From positions 19,297,501-19,361,500 of the forward strand of contig OX344749.2 of NCBI GenBank assembly GCA_947034885.2: a DNA stretch of 64,000 bases, written 5' to 3'. Below the pieces are notes generated by a model. It worked only from the letters and a program-made list of their open reading frames with translations, made no database searches and was not told the DNA's origin. The DNA is from Thuidium tamariscinum. Its lineage: Eukaryota > Streptophyta > Bryopsida > Hypnales > Thuidiaceae. How positions within the stretch are numbered: the stretch's first letter is position 1; every line of letters begins with the position of its first letter. Made by a program: the position numbers and the translations under genes. Of this stretch, positions 5,380 through 62,970 are shown piece by piece.

Positions 5380-6308
5380 TTAACCCCTAAAGGACCATTG
5401 TCCCTTTGGGGGACAAATGCAATTTTGGGCAGGTACCTACGGGCTGAATTTTTGTCCTAATTTTTTGAAACTTTTTTTAAATATAGAAAAATTGAACATC
5501 TTTGTGGGGATATAATTTTTTTTCAATCAGTGACTGGGAACAAAAGTTATGCCCAAATAACCTCAAAACAGGGGATGGCGGGCAATTCGGGCAGCAAAGA
5601 AAAATTTTGAATTTTTTTTTTTGAATTTTTTTTCTTATAGATTATATTTTTGTATATATAGGAAGCTTTGATTCATTTTATTTGGATTTGTTATGAGATA
5701 GTTATGGACATTCTTGTTTTTCGGGCAATTAGAGCATTTTCTTGAAAAAAATAACTTGTAGGATTCATTTCTAGATGCAATTTTTGCAATTTTTATTAAA
5801 AAAAAATTCATGGTTTAGTTTACTTTCTAGAACAATCTCACTATTAGGATTAGTGCATTTTAATTCCATCTAAAAGATATTAATATTTTAGATTTTCCTT
5901 CTACCTCGTACCTACTTCTACTTAACAATTTTTTTTAAGAATGAAGATTAAGTTTTTTTGAATTTATTTTTTTTCCCTAGATTCTCAACTCAATTTTGCA
6001 CTAGAAATAATTAAAGCTCAAAACTCTTTAGTACCAAATTTTGAAGTTAAAAATGTTCAAAGTCAAAAAATCCAGTCCCGTAATGTGCTGAAAAACTTGT
6101 TTTTCCCACTTTAAATGCAAGTATCTTGCAATCTGTGTGGTCAAAAATTCTGAATTTTTTTCCACAATATCTTAGACTAGTGAGGTATAAGATCCTATGG
6201 TTAGATGTGAAAAAAAATGAATTAATTTCTTTTTTTACTCTTTGCTATAAAATTGGCAGTTTTTAGTATTTTTAGGTAGAAAACAGGGCTTGGTCCTTTA
6301 GGGGTTAA
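5380..6308 (+). mobile_element. TTAA-type element, family D copy 1 (929 bp)
   Basis: Bounded by perfect inverted ends: TTAACCCCTAAAGGACCA on the left and its exact reverse complement on the right (18 bp including TTAA). The inside has no usable reading frame, so it is non-autonomous. Copies of the same element occur at 12811, 45769 and 58899, with partial ones at about 15957, 35480, 41165 and 60721. TTAA next to CCC is the piggyBac-type signature (known family feature); the superfamily assignment is inference. Confidence 0.8.
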
Positions 6309-12810: not shown

Positions 12811-13741
12811 TTAACCCCTAAAGGTTTTGACTATGTTTTCACCAAAACTGCTCCAAAACTGTCATTTTTAGGATAACTATCAAATTTTAGAAAATAAACA
12901 TTTTTAGAATAATGTGACCGTAGGATCTTAGAGTACACTAGTTTGAGAGAATGTACAAAAAATTTCAGAAAATTCCGCCATGTAGATTGTAAGATAATAG
13001 TGTTTGAAGTTACAAAAATCCCTTTTTTATCACTCCGGAAATCCGGGCAGCTGCACTTCAGAAGGCCACATTTGTATGAAAAAATATTCAAAATGGTTGT
13101 TACTCTTTGGATTCATTCTCCAATTCAAGTTGGCTACATGCTCAAAAAATTTCAAATCATTTCGAATTGTACAACATGTACAAAAAAAAAAATAAGTAAA
13201 GAGAAGTAGAGAATGATTCAAAACACTAAATGTTTAACAATTTATTTATTGAATTGAAAATTGCCAATCTCAATGGTTCAAATGTTGTAATAAACATTCT
13301 ACACCCAATTTTTTTGGTTTTTTTCAAAAATATTGAAAATTGAGTAAAATAAAGGACTTCAAAGTTTATTTTAGAGTAGAGAATCCATGACTACCCGCAA
13401 ACTAAAATTCTTCATAACTTTTGACTCATTAATCCAAATGGAATGATTCAAAGATTTCCACATATATATAAATCTATAAAACCAATCTCAAATTTTGGTT
13501 TTCAAAAAAAGTGATTTTTTCTGATCTGCCCGAACTGCCCGAGTTGAGAAACAAACAACATATTATGCAATAACTTTTCAACCATGTAGTCAAAAGTCAT
13601 GAAAATTGTTGGGCTTGAAAGATACTCCTCGTCCACACCTTCTGTTAAATTTTGGTTCCAAAATATAGAAATCTCTAGTCACACGTACCTGCCCAAAATC
13701 ACTATGTTGCCAAAAAAGCACTTTGGTCCTTTAGGGGTTAA
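12811..13741 (-). mobile_element. TTAA-type element, family D copy 2 (931 bp)
   Basis: Ends TTAACCCCTAAAGG and CCTTTAGGGGTTAA are perfect inverted repeats. The right end, read as reverse complement (ACCAAAGTGC...TTTTGGGCAGGTAC), matches the left end of copy 1, so this copy is inverted. Overlapping short frames on both strands at 12831-13221 are shadows of the element, not genes. Non-autonomous. Confidence 0.8.
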
Positions 13742-18639: not shown

Positions 18640-20788
18640 TCAAAAGTCAATTAGCATTGAAACAATTATTCATTCTAGTCAAAGTTAATGCATGAGTCAA
18701 TAAGGATTCAAATAATTGAAGTAGAATAGTAGTTAAAGAAAAGGATGAAGGGAGAGGAAAGAAAAGATGGAGTAGGAATCGAAGGACTTAAGAAGGAAGG
18801 GGAAGTAGAATATCTTAAAACTTTGTAATACAATATCAAACTTAAATAACGAACAAATATTGAAGTAGAGAACAAGATGGATCAACTAGGAGAGTTCAAG
18901 TATGCATTCATGTACCACCCTATCAAGACTCACCATTAGATATGTTATTAAAACTTCCAATTCCTCTTTAATTTGTCAAAATTAGCAAAGTCTAATTAGG
19001 GCTAAGGCCAAGATTTTAGTTAGTCTATTAGAGAAAAGTTTTAAGTCAAAATTTTATTAAAGAATCTTGTATAAGATGTTTTGAAGATTCTGAAATATAA
19101 AGTACTTAGAAAATTGAGTCAAAATAAATAAAATACATGTGGATGAAGTTTAGGACCAAAAATTAATAAACTTAGTTAAGATTATCAAAGTTGAATAAAA
19201 TTAGGAAGATAGAAAGTGGTAAAAATTTTGAAGTCAAAATTTGAAATACAATTTATTTTTGAGTTGTCAGTTGAAAGAAAATTGTGAATGCAGTTTGAGG
19301 GACCAATTAGTGGTGATACTTCATCCATGCATAACTTCCATTAGGAAAGTTCAAATTAGAAGTGTCTTAGTATTTTAGAAATATAGAATTAGCCTCTACA
19401 ACCAAAAATTATTCAAAAGTTTTAGAAGAATAAATTGTCAAAGGTAGCACTAAAATATAGAAACAAAGAGCTTTGACTAAGAACTTAAGTGAGTCAAAAG
19501 GAACAATTAAAAATATAGCTCTTAGAGATAGTTGAGAAAAGTCTATACATACTTTAAAGTCTATAAAAGATCCAAAACTCCATAAGATATGGAGAGATGA
19601 AATTCTAACACATAACCGAATGAAAGTCAAAAAAAGTGATTAGGAAAGCCCAAACTTGGATTTTAAGAATTATCAACTCCTTCAACACATATGCAAAGTT
19701 TTGAAACAAATCAAAATAGGAAATTAGTATAAAAATGTGGATGAAGTTTTAATAGCCTTTCCAAAGGCTAAACTTCATCTACTTATAATTTTTGCTAAGG
19801 AAGTCAAATTGGGTTGAGTCTTATATTTTCAAAAAGTGTATAATTTTTTTTACAATTTGAGGTGACTAAATTTGGAATGTCTATAGTTCCATTAGGTAAC
19901 CACAAAGCCTAGCTCATTTGGCTATTAACAACATTTTTTGCAATTACATTGAACTTTTTTTCCCTTTTTTTTACAATCTTGTACATACTTTGGCACTTTA
20001 AAAAGATTCATTGCTTAAAAGGCATAGAAGACCACACCTAGGCACCCACTTGTTATTAAAAAAATGAACAAAAACCTTGTTGTACTTGCCTATTTACCAA
20101 AGATGAGTAAATAAATGCTTACAACTAGTATTCGGAACTTTTTCAAAAGGAAATTATTTGAAATAAACATTGTATGAGAAATAAAGAAGCCACCAAAGTT
20201 CACTATATCTATAATCCAAAAATGTATAGTTTTTGAACATTGAAGTGCTCCTAAACATTCAAATCAAATTGGATTGACATGAAAATTGGACCACAATAAC
20301 TAAACTTCTAGAAAAACAGAACAGAACAAATTTGATTGAAACTAAATATTAGATGCAAGAGATACAAGCCACCAAGGCACCAAAGTTGCCACCATCAAGT
20401 GCAATCAGGTGAACTCAAATTAAACCTATGAACTTTAATTGGCTTTCAAAATATTAGTTCATCTTAGATCGATCTAAAAGTTTTACTACACTCACTAGAG
20501 AAGAGAGCAAAGATATTTCAACAAATTTTATTGAATTTAGACATTGGATGCAAAAGTTATAGCAATTCAAATTGGACTTCTACATTATAAATACACTTTT
20601 GGTCACGCAGGGCATTTAGGGTTAAGTCAATATACTACAAGATTCAATGTTTTTATGTACCTAAAATTAGTAGAAGGCTTCAAAATTTGGTACTTGTACT
20701 AGAAATGGCAATTTTTGAGCATTTTTGGTGAAAACATAATCAACAAATTTAATCTTGAAGTGCTCCAATGTCTAATTTCTAAATGGTG
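18640..20788 (+). repeat. Large AT-rich dispersed repeat (partner of 10.3-12.5 kb)
   Basis: Carries GGATGAAGTTT / AACTTCATC phrases at 19140, 19320, 19735 and 19785 that recur inverted at 10.4-10.9 kb, and a weaker likeness to 60.2-60.7 kb. A fragment resembling the inner end of family D (GAAATGGCAATTTTTGAGC) lies near 20703. All frames are short; no protein supported. Confidence 0.4.
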
Positions 20789-22053: not shown

Positions 22054-22329
22054 CATTATAGGGGATTTGAGGTCTCCAAATGGCCGTTTCGAGGCTATTC
22101 CCTAAAACTCTTCCGTAACTGTTGGCCACTTTCAAGCCAGCATTTACCCCCAAAAAAATGGGTCCTGAAATATGAAAAAAAAAACCTTTAAATTTGTTTT
22201 TCAGAAAATAAATAAATTAATGATGTGGCACTCTCTCAACCACATAGGATTCCTGTTCACACGGCATAAATTGTGTTCTTGCAATCTGAGAACCCACAGT
22301 CTTCCAATGGCCTCAAGAATCCCCTAATG
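22054..22329. mobile_element. CATTAG-type TIR element, family C copy 2 (276 bp)
   Basis: Ends CATTATAGGGGATTTGAGG and CCTCAAGAATCCCCTAATG are imperfect inverted repeats. The inside holds CTGAGAACCCACAGTCTTCC, the reverse complement of the GAAGACTGTGGGTTCTCA-type subterminal block seen in the other copies. Non-coding. Confidence 0.75.
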
Positions 22330-22339
22330 TTTGTGACGC

Positions 22340-24120: not shown

Positions 24121-24385
24121 CATTAGATGAAATTTGAGGGCATTAGGAGACTGCAGGTTCCCAAACTGCCGGAACGTAGTTTTTGCCTTGTGAACTCAAA
24201 TCCTATGTGGTCGCGCCCCTGCCACATAATTATTTTTTTTTTCAATTTTTTTTGGACTTATTTTCATATTCAAGGACCCAATTTTTTATTTATTAAAGTC
24301 GGCGTGACAACGGCCAGCAACAATGGGAGCCGCTTCAGGAATAGACCCAAAACGGCCCTGCAATGCCCTCAAATTTCATCTAATG
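24121..24385. mobile_element. CATTAG-type TIR element, family C copy 3 (265 bp)
   Basis: Best preserved copy: the first 24 bases (CATTAGATGAAATTTGAGGG...) are the exact reverse complement of the last 24. Subterminal blocks GGAGACTGCAGGTTCCC and GGCCAGCAACAATGGG match copies at 22054 and 56745. The 126-codon frame at 24127 simply runs through the element and is not called. No certain target duplication is visible. Confidence 0.85.
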
Positions 24386-34471: not shown

Positions 34472-34802
34472 TAAGGTAGAAGGCTCTTAAATGGAGTGGG
34501 TTGTAAAATGGTGCCCTACCTTAAATGTACAATATTTGTACATGTTGCTTTTTCATAGCCCTCAGCAGTGTACTAACAATGTAAATTTTTGCTAGGGCAC
34601 CATTTTAGAGCCCTATGCCCTTCCAACTTCAACATTTGATAACTAATTCCACAAAGATCCAAAAAATATAAAACAACTTGTGTTAGATGTCAATTCCACT
34701 TGTCTTTCAAGGAAAGTATACTGAAAAATATTGCAAGATGTTTCATCTTCCCAAAATTCAGTTTCAGCCCTTAGATGGGCGATTACTGAGCCTTCTACCT
34801 TA
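34472..34802. mobile_element. MITE family H, copy 1 (331 bp)
   Basis: Ends TAAGGTAGAAGGCTC and GAGCCTTCTACCTTA are perfect inverted repeats. A second copy of the same length and order is at 39251-39581, alike over the whole length (for example GCTAGGGCACCATTTTAGAG and TTAGATGTCAATTC in both). Non-coding; superfamily not determined. Confidence 0.85.
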
Positions 34803-38390: not shown

Positions 38391-39046
38391 TTAACCCCTA
38401 ACTGCCCAAGGCACCAGAATTTGATATTTGCAAAATTTTGAAGTTAAATAAAACCTAACCAATCTGCTATTTTTAGTAGTTTGTATTTTTGGAAAGTTCT
38501 TCTAGAAGTCTAGTTTTAGTGTCAAAAATATTATTTAGAAAATGAATGATAGTGATTTTTCTATACAAGATTTTGTACAAGGGTACCCCTTGCAATCTTG
38601 ACTTTGTGTAGTGTTGAGAGCTCTTGAAAATGAGCCTCAAATACACTAGATCTTGAAGAAAAAAATCACATTCAAAATTCATTTAAAAAAATTGTAGAAT
38701 AGATTTTGAGGAGTTGTAAATTGATTGGAGTTGTGCATGTTAGGCCCTTTCACCTCATATTTTTTTGGTCTCCAACTTTTTAGATTTAACTTGCAAAAAG
38801 AGGATAAAAACACTTTACATCACTTTTGTAGTTTTAACACCCTCATGGTCAAACATTATAATCTTTCACTCTACAAGTGCTATTGTTGTATTTTCTTTTC
38901 CTATGTAATCTCTAACATGTCTAGTTTGAATTTGTACGGTTGCAATTCAAAAAAGATTGATACAAATTATCAATATGTTGGCATTTTGTTCAACTTAGAG
39001 CAAATTCTAAGAAGCTAGAAACAGGCCTTGGGCAGTTAGGGGTTAA
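38391..39046. mobile_element. TTAA-type element, family E (656 bp)
   Basis: The first 22 bases, starting TTAACCCCTAACTGCCCAAG, are the exact reverse complement of the last 22. The ends share only TTAACCCCTAA with family D, and the inside differs, so it is a separate family with the same TTAA plus CCC architecture. Internal frames (97 codons + at 38725; 69 codons - at 38473) lack transposase features. Confidence 0.85.
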
Positions 39047-39250: not shown

Positions 39251-39581
39251 CAAGGTAGAAGGCTCTTAAATGGAACGGGTTCTGAAATGGTGCCCTATCT
39301 TAAATGTATAGTATTTGTACATGTTGCTTTATCATAGCCTTTAGCAATGTACTGATAGTGTACATTTTAGCTAGGGCACCATTTTAGAGCCCTATGCCCT
39401 TTCAACTTCAAAATTTAATAACGAATTCAAAAAAACTCAGAAAAATATGAAACGACTTGGGTTAGATGTCAATTCTATTTGTCTTTCAAGGAAAATTTAC
39501 TGAAAAATATTTCTAGAAGTTTTACCTCCGTGAAATTCTGTTTCAGCCCTCAGATGGTTCATTATAGGACCTCTTACCTCA
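39251..39581. mobile_element. MITE family H, copy 2 (331 bp)
   Basis: Full-length relative of 34472-34802, same orientation. Left end AAGGTAGAAGGCTC is kept; the right end is mutated (GGACCTCTTACCTC). Substitutions are spread evenly, as in an old insertion. Confidence 0.85.
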
Positions 39582-39986: not shown

Positions 39987-40217
39987 TGCAGAATATAAGT
40001 ATTATTGTATTGTATCAATTTCTACAAAATAAATAGTTTTTGAGATATTGCTTGTGTAGGTGGTTATAGTAGAACTTTTCTAAAATAATACTCCCTGTGT
40101 TCCATTAAAACCCTCCAATTCAGGTAGAATTTTTATTTCATTAAAAAACTTCATTTTTATTTTGACAGTATACTAATTGTTTATTGAATTGAACAACTTT
40201 ATAGGGGCTAGTTAAAT

Positions 40218-40492
40218 AAGGTAGGTACACCCAAAATGGCACCTGACCTTAAAGCGCCATCTACAATGCGCATACATTTCCAAAATCAATCATGTACCCA
40301 CATTGTAGATGGTGCTTTCAAAAACAGACTTTGACCATTAATAACTTTTGCATATGGTATCCAAATCCTCTGTTCTTTGGTGCGTTGGAACATGCTTTCA
40401 CTCACCAACAAGACTATATAAAAATTTGAATAGCATGATAATAGGAACTAGGCACAGTAAGAATAAGTGGCGCTTTTGGATGTACCCACCTC
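40218..40492 (+). mobile_element. MITE family J, copy 1 (275 bp)
   Basis: Ends AAGGTAGGTACACCCAAAA and TTTTGGATGTACCCACCT. The inside (CACCTGACCTTAAAGCGCC, GGAACATGCTTTCACTCACC) is the reverse complement of the copy at 42859-43135. The 90-codon frame across it is an element shadow. Confidence 0.85.
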
Positions 40493-41325: not shown

Positions 41326-42045
41326 CAATTAGTGCCCAAGAACAAAAGTTATACCATAATAAGCCTCAAATTGAATTTAGTGAATAGAAAAAAATTCACA
41401 AAAATTTGAAACAAAAGTAAAATTTTATTTTTATAGATTGTGTTTCTATCTAAATAAAATTTTATGATTCATTCCATTTGGGTTTTTAATGTGAAAGTTG
41501 TGGAGCACCTTATTTTGTAGACAATCAAAGAAACTTCTAAAAAAATAATACTTAGGATTTGTTTTTGAGCTCAACTTTTCTAATTTTTTCACAATCTTAC
41601 CATGAAGATTAATTCCATTTTGAGGTTAGTGATAATTTAGTTTTTCCTTCACTCTTGTATGAATTTATCATTTTGTTTGGAATTTTTATTCCAATACTTT
41701 CAATTCAGTGCTTTGACATAATTCTTTTTTATCAAGATAATCAATGCAAAAAAATTTAATTAAGAAGATTCAAAATTCAAATAATGTAGTCACAAAATGT
41801 GTATAAGAAGCCAATTCCTTCACTTTAAATGCAAAAAATCTTGCTATTGACAAGGTGAAAGTTTTGAAATTTCTTCCACAATTTCTCATACTAGTTTAGT
41901 GTAAGATCTTATAGTTAAATATATAAAAATAAAAATAAATTAATGAATTAATTATATATAAATATAAGGCTATTGCGCTTTGCAATAGAGATGACAATTT
42001 TAGTGGTTTCTAATGAAAAAATGCCCATGGGATTTTAGGGATTAA
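41165..42045 (+). mobile_element. TTAA-type element, family D, diverged copy with (TA)n
   Basis: Follows copy 1 in order: AAAGGACGAAATGG and TTTTGGGC at the left, ACAAAAGTTATRCC, ATAGATTGTGTTT, CACAATTTCTCATACTAGT, and TTTTAGGGATTAA at the right. A (TA)n run (about 41266-41321) has expanded where copy 1 has a short TA stretch. The left end is eroded. Confidence 0.6.
41266..41321. repeat. (TA)n microsatellite
   Basis: Pure TA alternation of about 55 bases inside the family D copy. Confidence 0.95.
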
Positions 42046-42733
42046 ATTTTTTAATTCATAATATGAATTTTGGTAACTATAAACTATCATTTCTATATCT
42101 AAACTACACAAACTAGGTACAATAACTATCTAATTGGAAAACAACAAATATTGTGTAATAGGCAACGAAGTCCTTTGCCCTTGCTTCCACACAAAACACT
42201 ATTCAAATTGATTTTTTTTCTACATTTCATTTCATTTGAAATTGATGTGTATTCAATTTATAACCCTTTTTTTGAATACGAGTATTAGATGGTCAATGTC
42301 CACATGTCAAAAATGTTTATGCAGAAGAAGTTTGAAGAAATTTGCCAAATACCCCGCCTCAAGGTTAGATTCAGCAGAAATTCATTCATTTTGGAAATAA
42401 AGTGACACGTGCTTTCTTGTGATTAGAGTGATCTAAAATGACGTGGACCCATGAGAATCTGACGTGGAAATTCAATTCAGACACTCGGGTGCCAAATCAG
42501 ACCTTCACGCCTGGTAAGCTTATTTCTCAATACAATAAACCAAGTTGTCTGCAGAAAAATATAATTTATAAATACGAAGTTATGCAATCATATTTGGGTG
42601 GACTTTGTTTGAGACGTTGTTGCCTGAGGTTTTTGATTAAATAATTTTTTTCTGCACATTGGTTGCCAGAGATTTTCAAATTATTTATTTTCTTCATTAA
42701 TTTTAATTTTTTTTCTTCTTGAGCATACATTAG
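42046..42733. other. Spacer without recognisable gene
   Basis: The 68-codon frame at 42438 has no domain. Nothing supported. Confidence 0.4.
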
Positions 42734-43279
42734 AGCAGGACGTTAAATCCTACCATCGAAGGTGGACCAAGCAGGGTAAAACTTGTATTACTTGGGGATA
42801 AAAATTAGAAAGCCCCTTATTGTGGGCCGTGTTTTTGGGTATGTTCCTCACACCACCTAAGGTAGGTACACCCAAAAGCGCCAACTTTTCATACTGTGCC
42901 TAGTTCCTGTTATTATGTTGTTCAAATTTTTTTTTACAGACTTGTTGGTGAGTGAAAGCATGTTCCAATGCAGCAAAGAACAGTGGATTTGGATACCATA
43001 TGCAAAAGTTATTAACAGTCAAAGTGTGTTTCTGAAAGCGCCATCTACAGTCTGGGTACATGACTGATTTTGAAAATGTATGCACGTTGCACAGGGCGCT
43101 TTAAGGTCAGGTGCCATTTTGGGTGTACCTACCTTACCTAGTATGGGGTCTCTGATTGCAAATATGAATTCAAAATTTGCAAAAAGAAATTGTGCAATTT
43201 TTAAAAAAAATTTAGTGTTTATCCTGGGGTAAATCCAGCCTGCTAGGTCCACCTTCGATGGTAGGATTTAATGTCCTCC
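42734..43279. mobile_element. MULE-like MITE A3 (546 bp) carrying an inserted element
   Basis: Long inverted ends: left GGACGTTAAATCCTACCATC continues through GAAGGTGGACC, and the right end carries its near-perfect reverse complement, together about 40 bp. TACATTAG flanks both sides (42726-42733, 43280-43287), an 8-bp target duplication. The inner block GCAAATATGAATTCAAAATT is shared with A1, A2 and A4. A complete family J element (42859-43135) sits inside; without it the length is near that of A1. Confidence 0.85.
42859..43135 (-). mobile_element. MITE family J, copy 2 (277 bp), nested in A3
   Basis: Ends AAGGTAGGTACACCC and GGGTGTACCTACCTT are perfect inverted repeats. ACCT occurs immediately on both sides, fitting a 4-bp target duplication. 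Same sequence as the copy at 40218 in the opposite orientation. Confidence 0.85.
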
Positions 43280-43287
43280 TACATTAG

Positions 43288-45768: not shown

Positions 45769-46652
45769 TTAATCCCTAAAGGACCAAAGTGTATTTCTTG
45801 GTAATATAGCAATTTTGGGCAAATTCCTATGAATGGAATTTTGTTTTTTTTCTTTGAAATTTTCACACAACATTTTTCCAAGGTGTAGCTTTAAGGGCCA
45901 AAAAATTTCATAACTTTTGACTATATGGTTCAAAATTTATTGTATGATATGTAGTTTTCATTGCTTGGCAGGTAGGCTGCGCAGAAAAAAACTTCTTCAA
46001 AAATTATTATTTTGATCAATGTTGTCAAAAGTTATGAGGATTTTTTAGTTTGGGTAGTTTGTGGCTAGTTATAGAATCTCTACACTACAAAAATTTTGGA
46101 ATTCTTTATTTAATTCAATTTTTAATATTTTTGAAAAAAAAATAAAAAAATTGGGTGTAGATTGTTTAAAACAACATTACAACCATTGGAATTTTCTTAA
46201 AATTTTAAATCTACAAATAAATTGTTAATAATTTAGTATTTTGAATCATTCTTTACTTCTTTCTACTTACTATTTTTTTCCTACATGTTGTACAATTCTA
46301 AATGATTTGAAAATTTTCAAGAATGTAGCCAATTTGACTTGAAGAATGAATCCAAAGAGTTACAATCATTTTGGACATTTTTTCATACAAATGTGGCCTT
46401 CTAAAGTGTAGCTACACAAATTTTCACAATGATAAAGAATTGATTTTTGTCTCTTCAAACACTAATATCTTGCAATCTATATGGTGGAAATTTCTTAAAT
46501 TTTTTCCACATTTTTAAAACCAGTGTACTAAAAGATCCTATAGTTACATTTGTCCAAAAATGTTTTTTTCTCAAAATTAGGTAGTTGTCCTAGAAATGAC
46601 AGTTTTGGAGCGATTTTGGTAAAAACATAATAAAAAACCTTTAGTGGTTAAG
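45769..46652 (+). mobile_element. TTAA-type element, family D copy 3 (884 bp)
   Basis: Begins TTAATCCCTAAAGGACCAAA and ends AACCTTTAGTGGTTAA. Inside in order: GCAATTTTGGGCA, CATAACTTTTGACTATATGG, TTTGGTAAAAACATAAT. Full length, orientation as copy 1. Non-coding. Confidence 0.8.
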
Positions 46653-56306: not shown

Positions 56307-56438
56307 TTAACCCTTGAAGGATATGGCCCCCTATGATCAAGGTGGCCATCTAAATAATAGGTGCATTCTTTGTTTCTATATCAAACAATGAAGTCATCCA
56401 TCAGACACTTTTGGTCTTCAACATCCTTCAAGGGTTAA
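56307..56438. mobile_element. TTAA-type MITE, family F (132 bp)
   Basis: Ends TTAACCCTTGAAGGAT and ATCCTTCAAGGGTTAA are perfect 16-bp inverted repeats including TTAA. A half-match (TTTAACCCTTGAACATG) occurs at 21823. Third sequence family here with TTAA next to CCC. Confidence 0.8.
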
Positions 56439-56744: not shown

Positions 56745-57038
56745 CATTAGAAGAGATTTGAGGCCTCTAGAAGACTATGAGTTCTTAAACTGCGAGAACG
56801 CCAAAATTGTTGCAGGAATGTATATCTAACGTGGTTGAGAGAGTGCTACATCATCGAATTTTTCGAAAAAAATATTTAAAAATTTGGACTTTTTTTCTCA
56901 TTGGAAGACCCTAATTTTTTTAATTTTTTAAATTTTTTTAATTTAGTAATTGTTGGCTAACAATAGCCAGCAACTTTGGGAACAATATTGAGAACAAGCC
57001 TAGAATAGGCTTATTTTGCCCTCAAATCCCTTCTAATG
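56745..57038. mobile_element. CATTAG-type TIR element, family C copy 5 (294 bp)
   Basis: Ends CATTAGAAGAGATTTGAGG and CCTCAAATCCCTTCTAATG are imperfect inverted repeats. The inside has AAACTGCGAGAACGCC, AATAGCCAGCAACTTTGGG and GAACAAGCCTAGAATAGG, matching copies 1-4 in order. Non-coding. Confidence 0.85.
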
Positions 57039-58898: not shown

Positions 58899-59826
58899 TT
58901 TAGTCCCTAAAGAACCAAATTGTATTTTTTTAGCAACATAGCGATTTTGGGCAGCTCACTATGGATGGAGTTTTTATTTTTTTTCATTGAAATTTTCACA
59001 CAACATGTGCTCAAGGAGTAGCTTCAAGGCCCAAAAATTTTCATAACTTTTGACTACATGGTCAAAAAGTTATTGCATGATATGTAGTTTTCATTGGTCG
59101 GCGGGCAGCCCAAAAATTTCTTATAAAAACTTTTTTTTTAAAATTAAAAATTTGAAATTGTTTTTCTAGATGTACATATATGAAAAAATCTTTGAATCAC
59201 TCCACTTTGATTTGTGAGACGAAAGTTATAAAGAGATTTAGTTTGCAGGCAGTTATGGATTCTCTATTCTAAAATAAACTTTGAAAGCCTTTATTTTCCT
59301 CAATTTTAAATATTTTTGAAAAAAAACTAATACTTTGGATGTTTATTGTTTGTCACAACATTACAACCATTGGGATTGACATTTTTTAATTCTATAAATA
59401 AAATTTTAACAGTTTAGTATTTTGAATCACCCTCTACTTCTTTCTACATATTAATTTTTTCCTATATGTTGTACAATTCCAAATGATGTGAATTTTTTTG
59501 AGCCAACTTGCTGTGAAGAATGAATCCAAGGAAGCACCACCATTTTGGACATTTTTCCATAGAAATGTGACCTTGTGAAGTGCAGTTGCCCGATTTTTTG
59601 CAGGGACAAAAAAAGGGTATTTGTCAATTCAAATGCTAATATCTTGCAATCTATATGGTGGAAAATTCTGAAATTTTTTCCACATCTTTTCACACAAGTG
59701 TACTATAAGATCCTACGGTTACATATGTCTAAAAATGTTTTTTTTCAAAAATTTGGTGCTTGAAGTAGACATGGCAATTTTGGTTTGTTTTTGGTGAAGA
59801 CATAGTCTTTGACCTTTAGGGGTTAA
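58899..59826 (+). mobile_element. TTAA-type element, family D copy 4 (928 bp)
   Basis: Left end TTTAGTCCCTAAAGAACCAA is a mutated TTAACCCCTAAAGGACCA; the right end GACCTTTAGGGGTTAA is intact. Inside, GCAACATAGCGATTTTGGGC, TCATAACTTTTGACTACATGG and TTTTTGGTGAAGACATAGTC follow copies 2 and 3. Frames at 59451 (-) and 59575 (+) are shadows. Confidence 0.8.
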
Positions 59827-61664: not shown

Positions 61665-62029
61665 AGTTCCAAGTCCATGATGAACTATGTGGGACAAATT
61701 GTTCCACTCCATGTTATTCCGCTGTGGCTTCCACATCAATGTGCATCAACTAAAGGATGAAGATTGAAGAGAAAACTTGATGGGCCATCATGTAGTTAGT
61801 CATCCACTCCAAGTTGGGACTCTTGGAAATAGAAGTCATTATAGGTACAACAAAAGGAACACATGTGTCAAGCACGGACCAATACTAAAAGGGGTACAGT
61901 CAAGGACCAAAATTTTTTAAGGCATTAGAGATGTTGAAGAGTAGGTCTCATTTATAGTAGGTAGGTTTAGAATAATAGGATAGTTTTCTTCGTTATTTTA
62001 TATTTTAAAACCACTTAGAGTAAATTCCC
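61665..62029. other. Flank of the open segment
   Basis: Similar moderate composition to about 61900, then AT-rich. Could be a 3' UTR if 61321-61664 is a real exon. Confidence 0.3.
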
Positions 62030-62970
62030 TACAAAAGCTCACAAAATTAAAGAAACACACTATGCCCATATTCCTTTGCAAACCTACTCTCATAGATTGC
62101 AGTTGACACAATATGGTATGTGAAAGTAGATTTGCAAAGGATTACGGACACAAGATATTTCTTTAATTTTCTAAGTTCTCTTGAAGCCTCTAGAATCAAA
62201 AAAGGACATAACATAGAAATGATAGGAGCTTAGAAAATTAAAGAAACATGCTATGCCCATACTCTTTGGGTCTAAACGAGGTAATAGGAGCCAATTTTGA
62301 CATAACCATTGTTTTTTTTGGACAATTATTGATTTCAAAGCTCAAATTTGAATAGATTTGTCTTAAAAAATTATGCTTTAAGAATCATAGATGGTATAGT
62401 CTTATGTTAAAGCATTTTATTATCTATTATGTCATCATCTTATTTTAATTAAGCATTAAAAACCTCATGTAACCAGTGCTTTTTAGTCCTTTGGTGAAAT
62501 TCAAAATAGAGTATTTAAGAACTTTTCTATTGAAAGTTATAATATTTTGAATAGAACTTGTCAATATTAACAACTTTGAACAATTTTTAGAATCAATTTT
62601 GATGAAATTGATGAAGTTTTTGAATAAAACATTTCTTGAAAATTTCAAAAGGACCTCCAAAAGGACCTATAAGCATGTCAAAATTGGCTCCTATTACCTT
62701 GTTTTGACCCCTTTAGCAAATCTACTCTTATAGACTACAGTTGACACATTGTAGTGTGTAAGAGTAGATTTGCCAAGGATTCCGAATACAACATGTTTCT
62801 TTAATTTTGTAAGTACTTTTGAAGTTGTCTAAATCAACACTAAAGCTGGAATTAGGGAAGGATATAGCATAGAAATTATAGAACTGTACTCTGGCTTCCT
62901 CCTTTAGAAGTCCTCTTATAGATTGCATTTTGGATAGTATGGTGTGTGAGAGTACATCTCAAGAAAGAGA
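62030..62970. repeat. Threefold hairpin repeat K, interrupted by MITE L
   Basis: Three modules each contain a hairpin: TTTGCAAACCTACTCTCATA paired with TGTGAAAGTAGATTTGCAAA (62075-62139), and diverged versions at 62711-62779 and 62901-62968. The first two share flanks with AAATTAAAGAAACAYRCTATGCCCATA and ATTTCTTTAATTTT (read piecewise). Module 2 is split by the 443-bp element at 62268-62710. Confidence 0.75.
62268..62710. mobile_element. TIR element L (443 bp), nested in repeat K
   Basis: Left end GGGTCTAAACGAGGTAATAG continues GAGCCAATTTTGACAT, and the right end is its reverse complement with about three mismatches in 36 bp. CTTT abuts both sides, a possible 4-bp target duplication. The minus-strand 71-codon frame inside has no transposase features. 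Confidence 0.85.

Follow-up and report, generated by a model that had tools for sequence, protein, structure and literature searches.

What kind of mobile element reads TTAA-CCC at one end and GGG-TTAA at the other in a plant genome? The question is raised by positions 5380-6308 of the stretch of DNA analysed here (64,000 nucleotides, in the following called the window), in which the first-pass annotation had described three sequence families of this form, D, E and F, and had read them as piggyBac-like MITEs in a plant host.

TTAA-bounded elements of the window

The description of three such families was confirmed, with exact coordinates and with inverted ends that are perfect over 14-22 bp. 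The elements and their relatives in the window are the following (lengths of inverted ends include the TTAA):

5380-6308, + strand: D1-type MITE, 929 bp with both TTAA counted, TTAA-CCCCTAAAGGACCA...TGGTCCTTTAGGGG-TTAA, perfect inverted ends of 18 bp; reference copy for the strands of D1
5380-5383, no strand: left TTAA target-site copy of D
6305-6308, no strand: right TTAA target-site copy of D
12811-13741, + strand: D2-type MITE, 931 bp, perfect inverted ends of 14 bp; reference copy for the strands of D2
45769-46651, - strand: D2-type MITE, 883 bp
58900-59826, - strand: D2-type MITE, 927 bp, TTAG in place of one TTAA
35411-36023, + strand: decayed D2-type copy, a single recognisable end, with TTAA
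15951-16132, + strand: D2-type end fragment with TTAA
20682-20751, - strand: short D2-like fragment
41420-42045, + strand: decayed D1-type copy, end TTAATCCCTAAAA
60706-61306, - strand: decayed, truncated D1-type copy
38391-39046, + strand: E-type MITE, 656 bp, perfect inverted ends of 22 bp
56307-56438, + strand: F-type MITE, 132 bp, perfect inverted ends of 16 bp
20593-20625, - strand: solo end TTAACCCTAAATGCCC with inner motif GACCAAAAGTGT

The ends of D read CCCCTAAAGGACC and those of E CCCCTAACTGCCC. In the window, seven inverted pairs of 13 bases or more are bounded by TTAA, compared to a total of one over 20 dinucleotide shuffles, and four of the seven begin with TTAACCC and are the D/E/F elements. 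The D element at 5380-6308 contains no open frame of at least 120 amino acids, a search against Rfam gave no match at the gathering thresholds, and D, E and F are too short for a transposase. A count of 4-mer direct repeats beside inverted arms, which gave five cases for TTAA and four for AATT in the window and did not single out TTAA, was set aside as evidence, since palindromic 4-mers merely lengthen the arms.

The other three TTAA-bounded pairs are located at 42743-43271 and, in two cases, at 62.2-62.8 kb. The pair at 42743-43271 was rejected as a TTAA element, as a longer inverted repeat (42734-43279), with TACATTAG (8 bp) on either flank, encloses it. This longer repeat is a 546-bp element (window 42726-43287) with arms of more than 26 bp and an apparent direct repeat of 8 bp, reminiscent of hAT-type elements, and it contains a further inverted repeat (42858-43136) with TAAGGTAGGTACACCC ends, which recurs at 40217-40491. 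At 62029-62824 several inverted and direct repeats are interleaved, including a pair at 62279-62699 with 25-bp arms. Further repeats of the window comprise a family found at 34472-34802, with ends TAAGGTAGAAGGCTC...GAGCCTTCTACCTTA, and at 39252-39557 (alike at 86% in an overlap of 306 bases), which is possibly a TA-type MITE, as well as an element at 24121-24385 with 24-bp perfect inverted ends (CATTAGATGAAATTTGAGGGCATT). The latter resembles 22054-22332 (66%), part of which in turn resembles 56745-56921 (68%).

The treatment of D as a single family held only in part: its elements are real, but self-comparison of the window splits them into two subfamilies. D1 consists of the copy at 5380 and two decayed relatives, D2 of the three longer copies and the three decayed or partial ones listed above. 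Neither E nor F recurs within the window at the threshold of the self-comparison. The D2 copy at 12811 matches D1 in every terminal base compared (14 of 14 on the left, 18 of 18 on the right), while the interiors agree in 472 of 887 positions (53%); towards the other two D2 copies, the D1 ends agree in 13-14 of 14 left and 15-17 of 18 right bases. Conservation is thus much stronger at the ends of D than inside, as would be expected if a transposase selects on the ends. The motif GACCAAAAGTGT is present in the right end of F (56405-56438) as well as in the solo end at 20625, two TTAACCC ends that are otherwise different. It has no further match in the window at one mismatch or less, and 20 shuffles yielded one exact match in total. 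GACCAAAGTG is present in two of the three D2 right ends. GACCAAAAGTGT may be a second module for transposase binding.

With regard to the host, the window contains coding sequence for a TCP transcription factor (E 5.3e-32) and for pentatricopeptide-repeat (PPR) proteins, so the plant origin that had been proposed is borne out. Dynein heavy-chain sequences were matched nine times in the genome (best E 1.7e-42) and in none of 14 control genomes. Flowering plants and conifers are not known to possess dynein heavy chains, and the matches therefore suggest that the host is probably a seedless land plant.

TTAA at occupied and unoccupied sites

In order to decide whether TTAA belongs to the target or to the element, 29 D copies from 28 loci were examined along with their flanks. 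Apart from one relative at 71%, these were D1 copies at 92.9-100% identity (28, counting that of the window). Both TTAA are preserved in 25 of the 29 copies, one or both are altered in the other four, and the 15 flanking bases on either side vary among the copies. Likewise, TTAA bounds all five E copies that were fetched. At six elements of the window no direct repeat of more than two bases was found outside the TTAA.

The first-pass annotation had proposed a comparison of empty sites in related accessions; here, related copies within the genome took their place. One D1 copy (L018) is inserted in an E-family element and has TTAA on both sides. At the corresponding point, a single TTAA is present in six of six unoccupied E copies (the five fetched ones and the E of the window), whereas three more diverged E-like copies (L020, L006 and L008, 78-82% alike) read ATAA, TTAT and TAAA. 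Six other insertions gave spanning matches: for L016, L022 and L027, at least one empty copy shows TTAA with one change, and for L002, L011 and L021 the matches were too diverged to be read. TTAA is the target, and it is duplicated from a single TTAA upon D insertion, as observed at one clean empty site. The reverse arrangement, an E nested in a D1 element, was dropped, as the weak match did not stand clearly above shuffles: its joined-flank score was reached by 10, 9 and 33 of 200 shuffles for three D1 copies.

Genome-wide copies and piggyBac transposases

Searches with the family sequences, which had been suggested earlier, were carried out on 363,211,507 bases in 19 contigs, with the window being located on contig C1. 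Only the best candidates were scored, so that the first-look counts of 7197, 8854 and 4912 are not copy numbers. For D1 (5380-6308) the best 40 scored matches, including the query, are all near full length at 90-100% identity. The D2 query (12811-13741) yielded 42 rows, of which two are partial and 40 reach nearly full length, with 96-100% identity. For E the best 40 scored matches, again including the query, are near full length at 95-100%, and 38 of them span positions 1-656. D and E are accordingly repeated throughout the genome, as far as the best 40 scored matches of each tell. The elements are short (132-931 bp), non-coding and provided with inverted ends, and for D1, D2 and E, for which copies were counted, many uniform full-length copies exist, as is characteristic of MITEs.

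Matches to six window elements of these families (E up to 1e-5) make up 6272 of the 64,000 window bases (9.8%). Around 20 other D1 copies, D/E/F-like sequence amounts to 8825 of 80,600 bases (10.95%) at the same E limit, with the copies by which the regions were selected being excluded. The figure of about one tenth for the whole genome is extrapolated from these values, since the 20-copy sample is not random.

A genome search with the profile PF13843 (DDE_Tnp_1_7) gave at least 116 scored matches out of 658 first-look candidates, with a best E of 5.7e-80. The matches cover most of the profile and many are without stops, and the same search found nothing in any of 14 control genomes. The frame of locus L040 matches the structures of piggyBat 9c0f (E 1e-27) and piggyBac 6x67 (E 9.3e-23), and PF13843 is the only Pfam match over 991 of its residues. 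It has a Cys-rich C-terminus and contains the motifs VDESM, DNFF and GVDTADQ, which we take to be the places of the piggyBac D-D-D residues. With a narrow pattern, all three catalytic motifs were detected in 4 of the 21 longest frames (L040 and three others). This low number is partly due to frames that are cut or broken, and others carried variants; in L070 the DE pattern was not found with the narrow motif pattern. Nine transposase representatives show pairwise identities of 28-53%, which suggests that several old transposase lineages coexist.

Both ends could be read for seven full-size elements of 4.9-7.2 kb, and in each of them TTAACCC stands at either end. These are L040 and L041 (5096 bp each, with a 1023-aa frame), L051 (5946 bp), L056 (4896 bp), L031 (5046 bp), L033 (4954 bp) and L070 (7225 bp, with a 744-aa frame), the 5' end of the last being read in one copy only. 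A DDE_Tnp_1_7 transposase enclosed by TTAACCC...GGGTTAA, which had been named as a partner to look for, is thus present in the genome. The L070 element (L070/L072/L075, genome G000, C3:23139350-23148569) has an additional 411-aa frame upstream of the transposase frame, for which there is no Pfam match. Among 30 transposase loci, the 3' TTAACCC end was located within the flank read in 19 and was not found in 11; of seven further 3' flanks it was present in two and not found in five. Two transposases of equal score in opposite orientation, L034 (G000 C8:23933884-23934996(-)) and L035 (C8:23941055-23942167(+)), lie about 6 kb apart. No TTAACCC 3' end occurs in the flanks read for them, and they possibly represent a lineage with different ends.

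Over 3984 bases, eleven copies of the L040 type at eleven sites are identical to L041 or deviate in a single base, with flanks that are only 25-31% alike. Such near-identical copies between unlike flanks suggest recent transposition, and from their sequences the L040-type elements appear to have jumped very recently. A second copy of L070 is 99.3% identical over 2800 bases and has a different 3' flank.

Origin of the MITEs and comparison with known systems

In order to relate the MITEs to the transposases, 17 full-size ends were compared with those of D, E and F. Within the first 11 bases behind the TTAA, a single mismatch separates F from the 3' end of L070, and two separate each of D1, D2 and E from the nearest of L070, L051, L054 and L056. 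Over 22 bases, 15-19 positions agree with the nearest full-size ends, and for D1, D2 and E the agreement is 16-19. According to the excerpt of PMC4455052 at hand, the Repbase naming rule for non-autonomous elements allows at most one mismatch over positions 1-11. F lies within this limit, whereas D and E fall narrowly outside it with the 17 ends at hand. No full-size element was found whose ends equal those of D, E or F, and the nearest of the 17 ends differ at one or two of the first 11 bases. The MITE interiors show no clear tie to full-size elements: D2-like and F-like pieces adjoin two of them, and the sole other interior match with E below 0.001 is that of two D copies to the far 3' side of L038 (71% over 90-95 bases). 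The full-size element L042 terminates at the TTAA next to a D2-like end. Any pairing of a particular MITE with a particular transposase is an inference.

Termini of the form 5'-CC(C)...(G)GG-3' are named as a piggyBac criterion in the accessible parts of PMC10045372 and PMC12732532, and D, E and F have such termini. D, E and F are called piggyBac-type because the TTAA target, the CCC termini and the co-resident PF13843 elements with like ends come together, and the piggyBac-like reading of the first-pass annotation is supported in this sense. We therefore consider it very probable that D, E and F belong to the piggyBac superfamily, as non-autonomous MITEs hosted by a seedless land plant; most likely, they were moved in trans by the transposase of the full-size elements. 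The piggyBac transposase of a full-size element would bind to the CCC... ends of the MITEs, which would then be cut out by the piggyBac cut-and-paste route and joined into another TTAA. Such movement could have amplified the MITEs to about one tenth of the sequence sampled.

Three other origins have to be weighed against this explanation. Kolobok elements also duplicate TTAA, and D, E and F might be Kolobok MITEs. However, the Kolobok ends described in the excerpt of PMC6004289 have TTAA followed by AGGRR (TTAACCCCTAAAGG-type), whereas those of D, E and F start with CCC, and the TTAACCC-ended full-size elements that were read carry PF13843, which makes a Kolobok origin very improbable. It could also be that the MITEs belong to PIF/Harbinger, with a 3-bp duplication, or to Tc1/mariner, with TA, and that the flanks complete TTAA by chance. 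TTA, TAA and TA are all contained in TTAA, and the part of the review PMC10004981 that was available describes Tourist and Stowaway MITEs with such duplications in plants. A TA or 3-bp duplication would, however, leave the outer base free to vary, whereas 25 of 29 D copies and five of five fetched E copies carry the full TTAA on either side, with differing flanks, and a single TTAA stands in the unoccupied E copies; we regard this origin as extremely improbable.

Finally, TTAA might be part of the inverted end of the element, with another target duplication or none. The first-pass annotation had cautioned that TTAA is palindromic, so that a single copy cannot discriminate between these arrangements. 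Against TTAA as part of the end speak the lack of any direct repeat above two bases outside the TTAA at the six window elements and the one TTAA that is kept by the six unoccupied E copies, and we give this arrangement hardly any credence. The piggyBac origin with a TTAA target is thus the explanation that we follow.

The earlier view that piggyBac is little described in land plants stands in one respect and needs qualification in another. A full-size, recently active land-plant piggyBac was not found in the titles and partial texts searched, but its presence in land plants has already been listed (PMC4438587, PMC6890710, PMC10004981; excerpts). In the portion of PMC12732532 at hand, piggyBac is widespread in animals, fungi and protists and occasional in plant genomes such as those of red algae, and a common-bean paper, as excerpted, does not count it among the six superfamilies that occur in plants (PMC4093653). 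A literature survey, in its accessible part, counts PiggyBac among the superfamilies of all groups studied, land plants included (PMC4438587), a table of a fern genome gives 1230 PiggyBac-labelled hits with 122 kb (PMC6890710, excerpt), and passages of two further papers touch briefly on plant piggyBac (PMC10813416, PMC10794571). No description of piggyBac from a moss or another bryophyte was found in the titles and beginnings of abstracts searched; matches for Niphotrichum were discarded, as they contained only the word "piggybacking".

D, E and F together with the full-size elements are a known kind of element, unusual for its host and for its abundance. We lean towards the further view that a diverse and currently active piggyBac fauna exists in a seedless land plant, with several transposase lineages that are only 28-53% alike, large full-size elements, one type whose movement is recent enough for eleven nearly identical copies, and MITEs that are fed by them and make up about one tenth of the genome. 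If this is true, piggyBac would for the first time be well documented as a leading, living DNA transposon of a plant, and piggyBac elements would account for a large share of the repeats of this genome. piggyBac ranks among the major genetic tools. Its natural range as an active element would be widened by a plant that has abundant MITEs alongside intact full-size elements of recent movement, and native plant transposases and ends would serve seamless plant engineering.

Compared to known systems, the elements resemble piggyBac (IFP2) and piggyBat in the TTAA duplication, the CCC...GGG termini, PF13843 with DDD motifs and the Cys-rich C-terminus. They differ in their host, a seedless land plant, and in size: piggyBac has 2472 bp according to the excerpt of PMC10813416 and 594 aa according to its protein chain, whereas the elements described here have 4.9-7.2 kb and frames of up to 1023 aa. 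The Pokey MITEs mPok1 and mPok2 of Daphnia and MITEs of two corals are likewise non-autonomous and TTAA/piggyBac-related, as stated in the available parts of PMC4912750 and PMC2872659, but their hosts are animals, and Pokey also targets a specific rDNA site. Kolobok T2-MITEs of Xenopus are alike in the TTAA duplication and the MITE form and differ in their AGGRR ends and in belonging to another transposase superfamily (PMC6004289, excerpt). The PiggyBac-class MITEs of angiosperms are small piggyBac-type plant MITEs that are named in a review, which in the part seen lists PiggyBac as one of seven superfamilies assigned by TIR/TSD similarity (PMC10004981); here, by contrast, full-size elements are present in the same genome.
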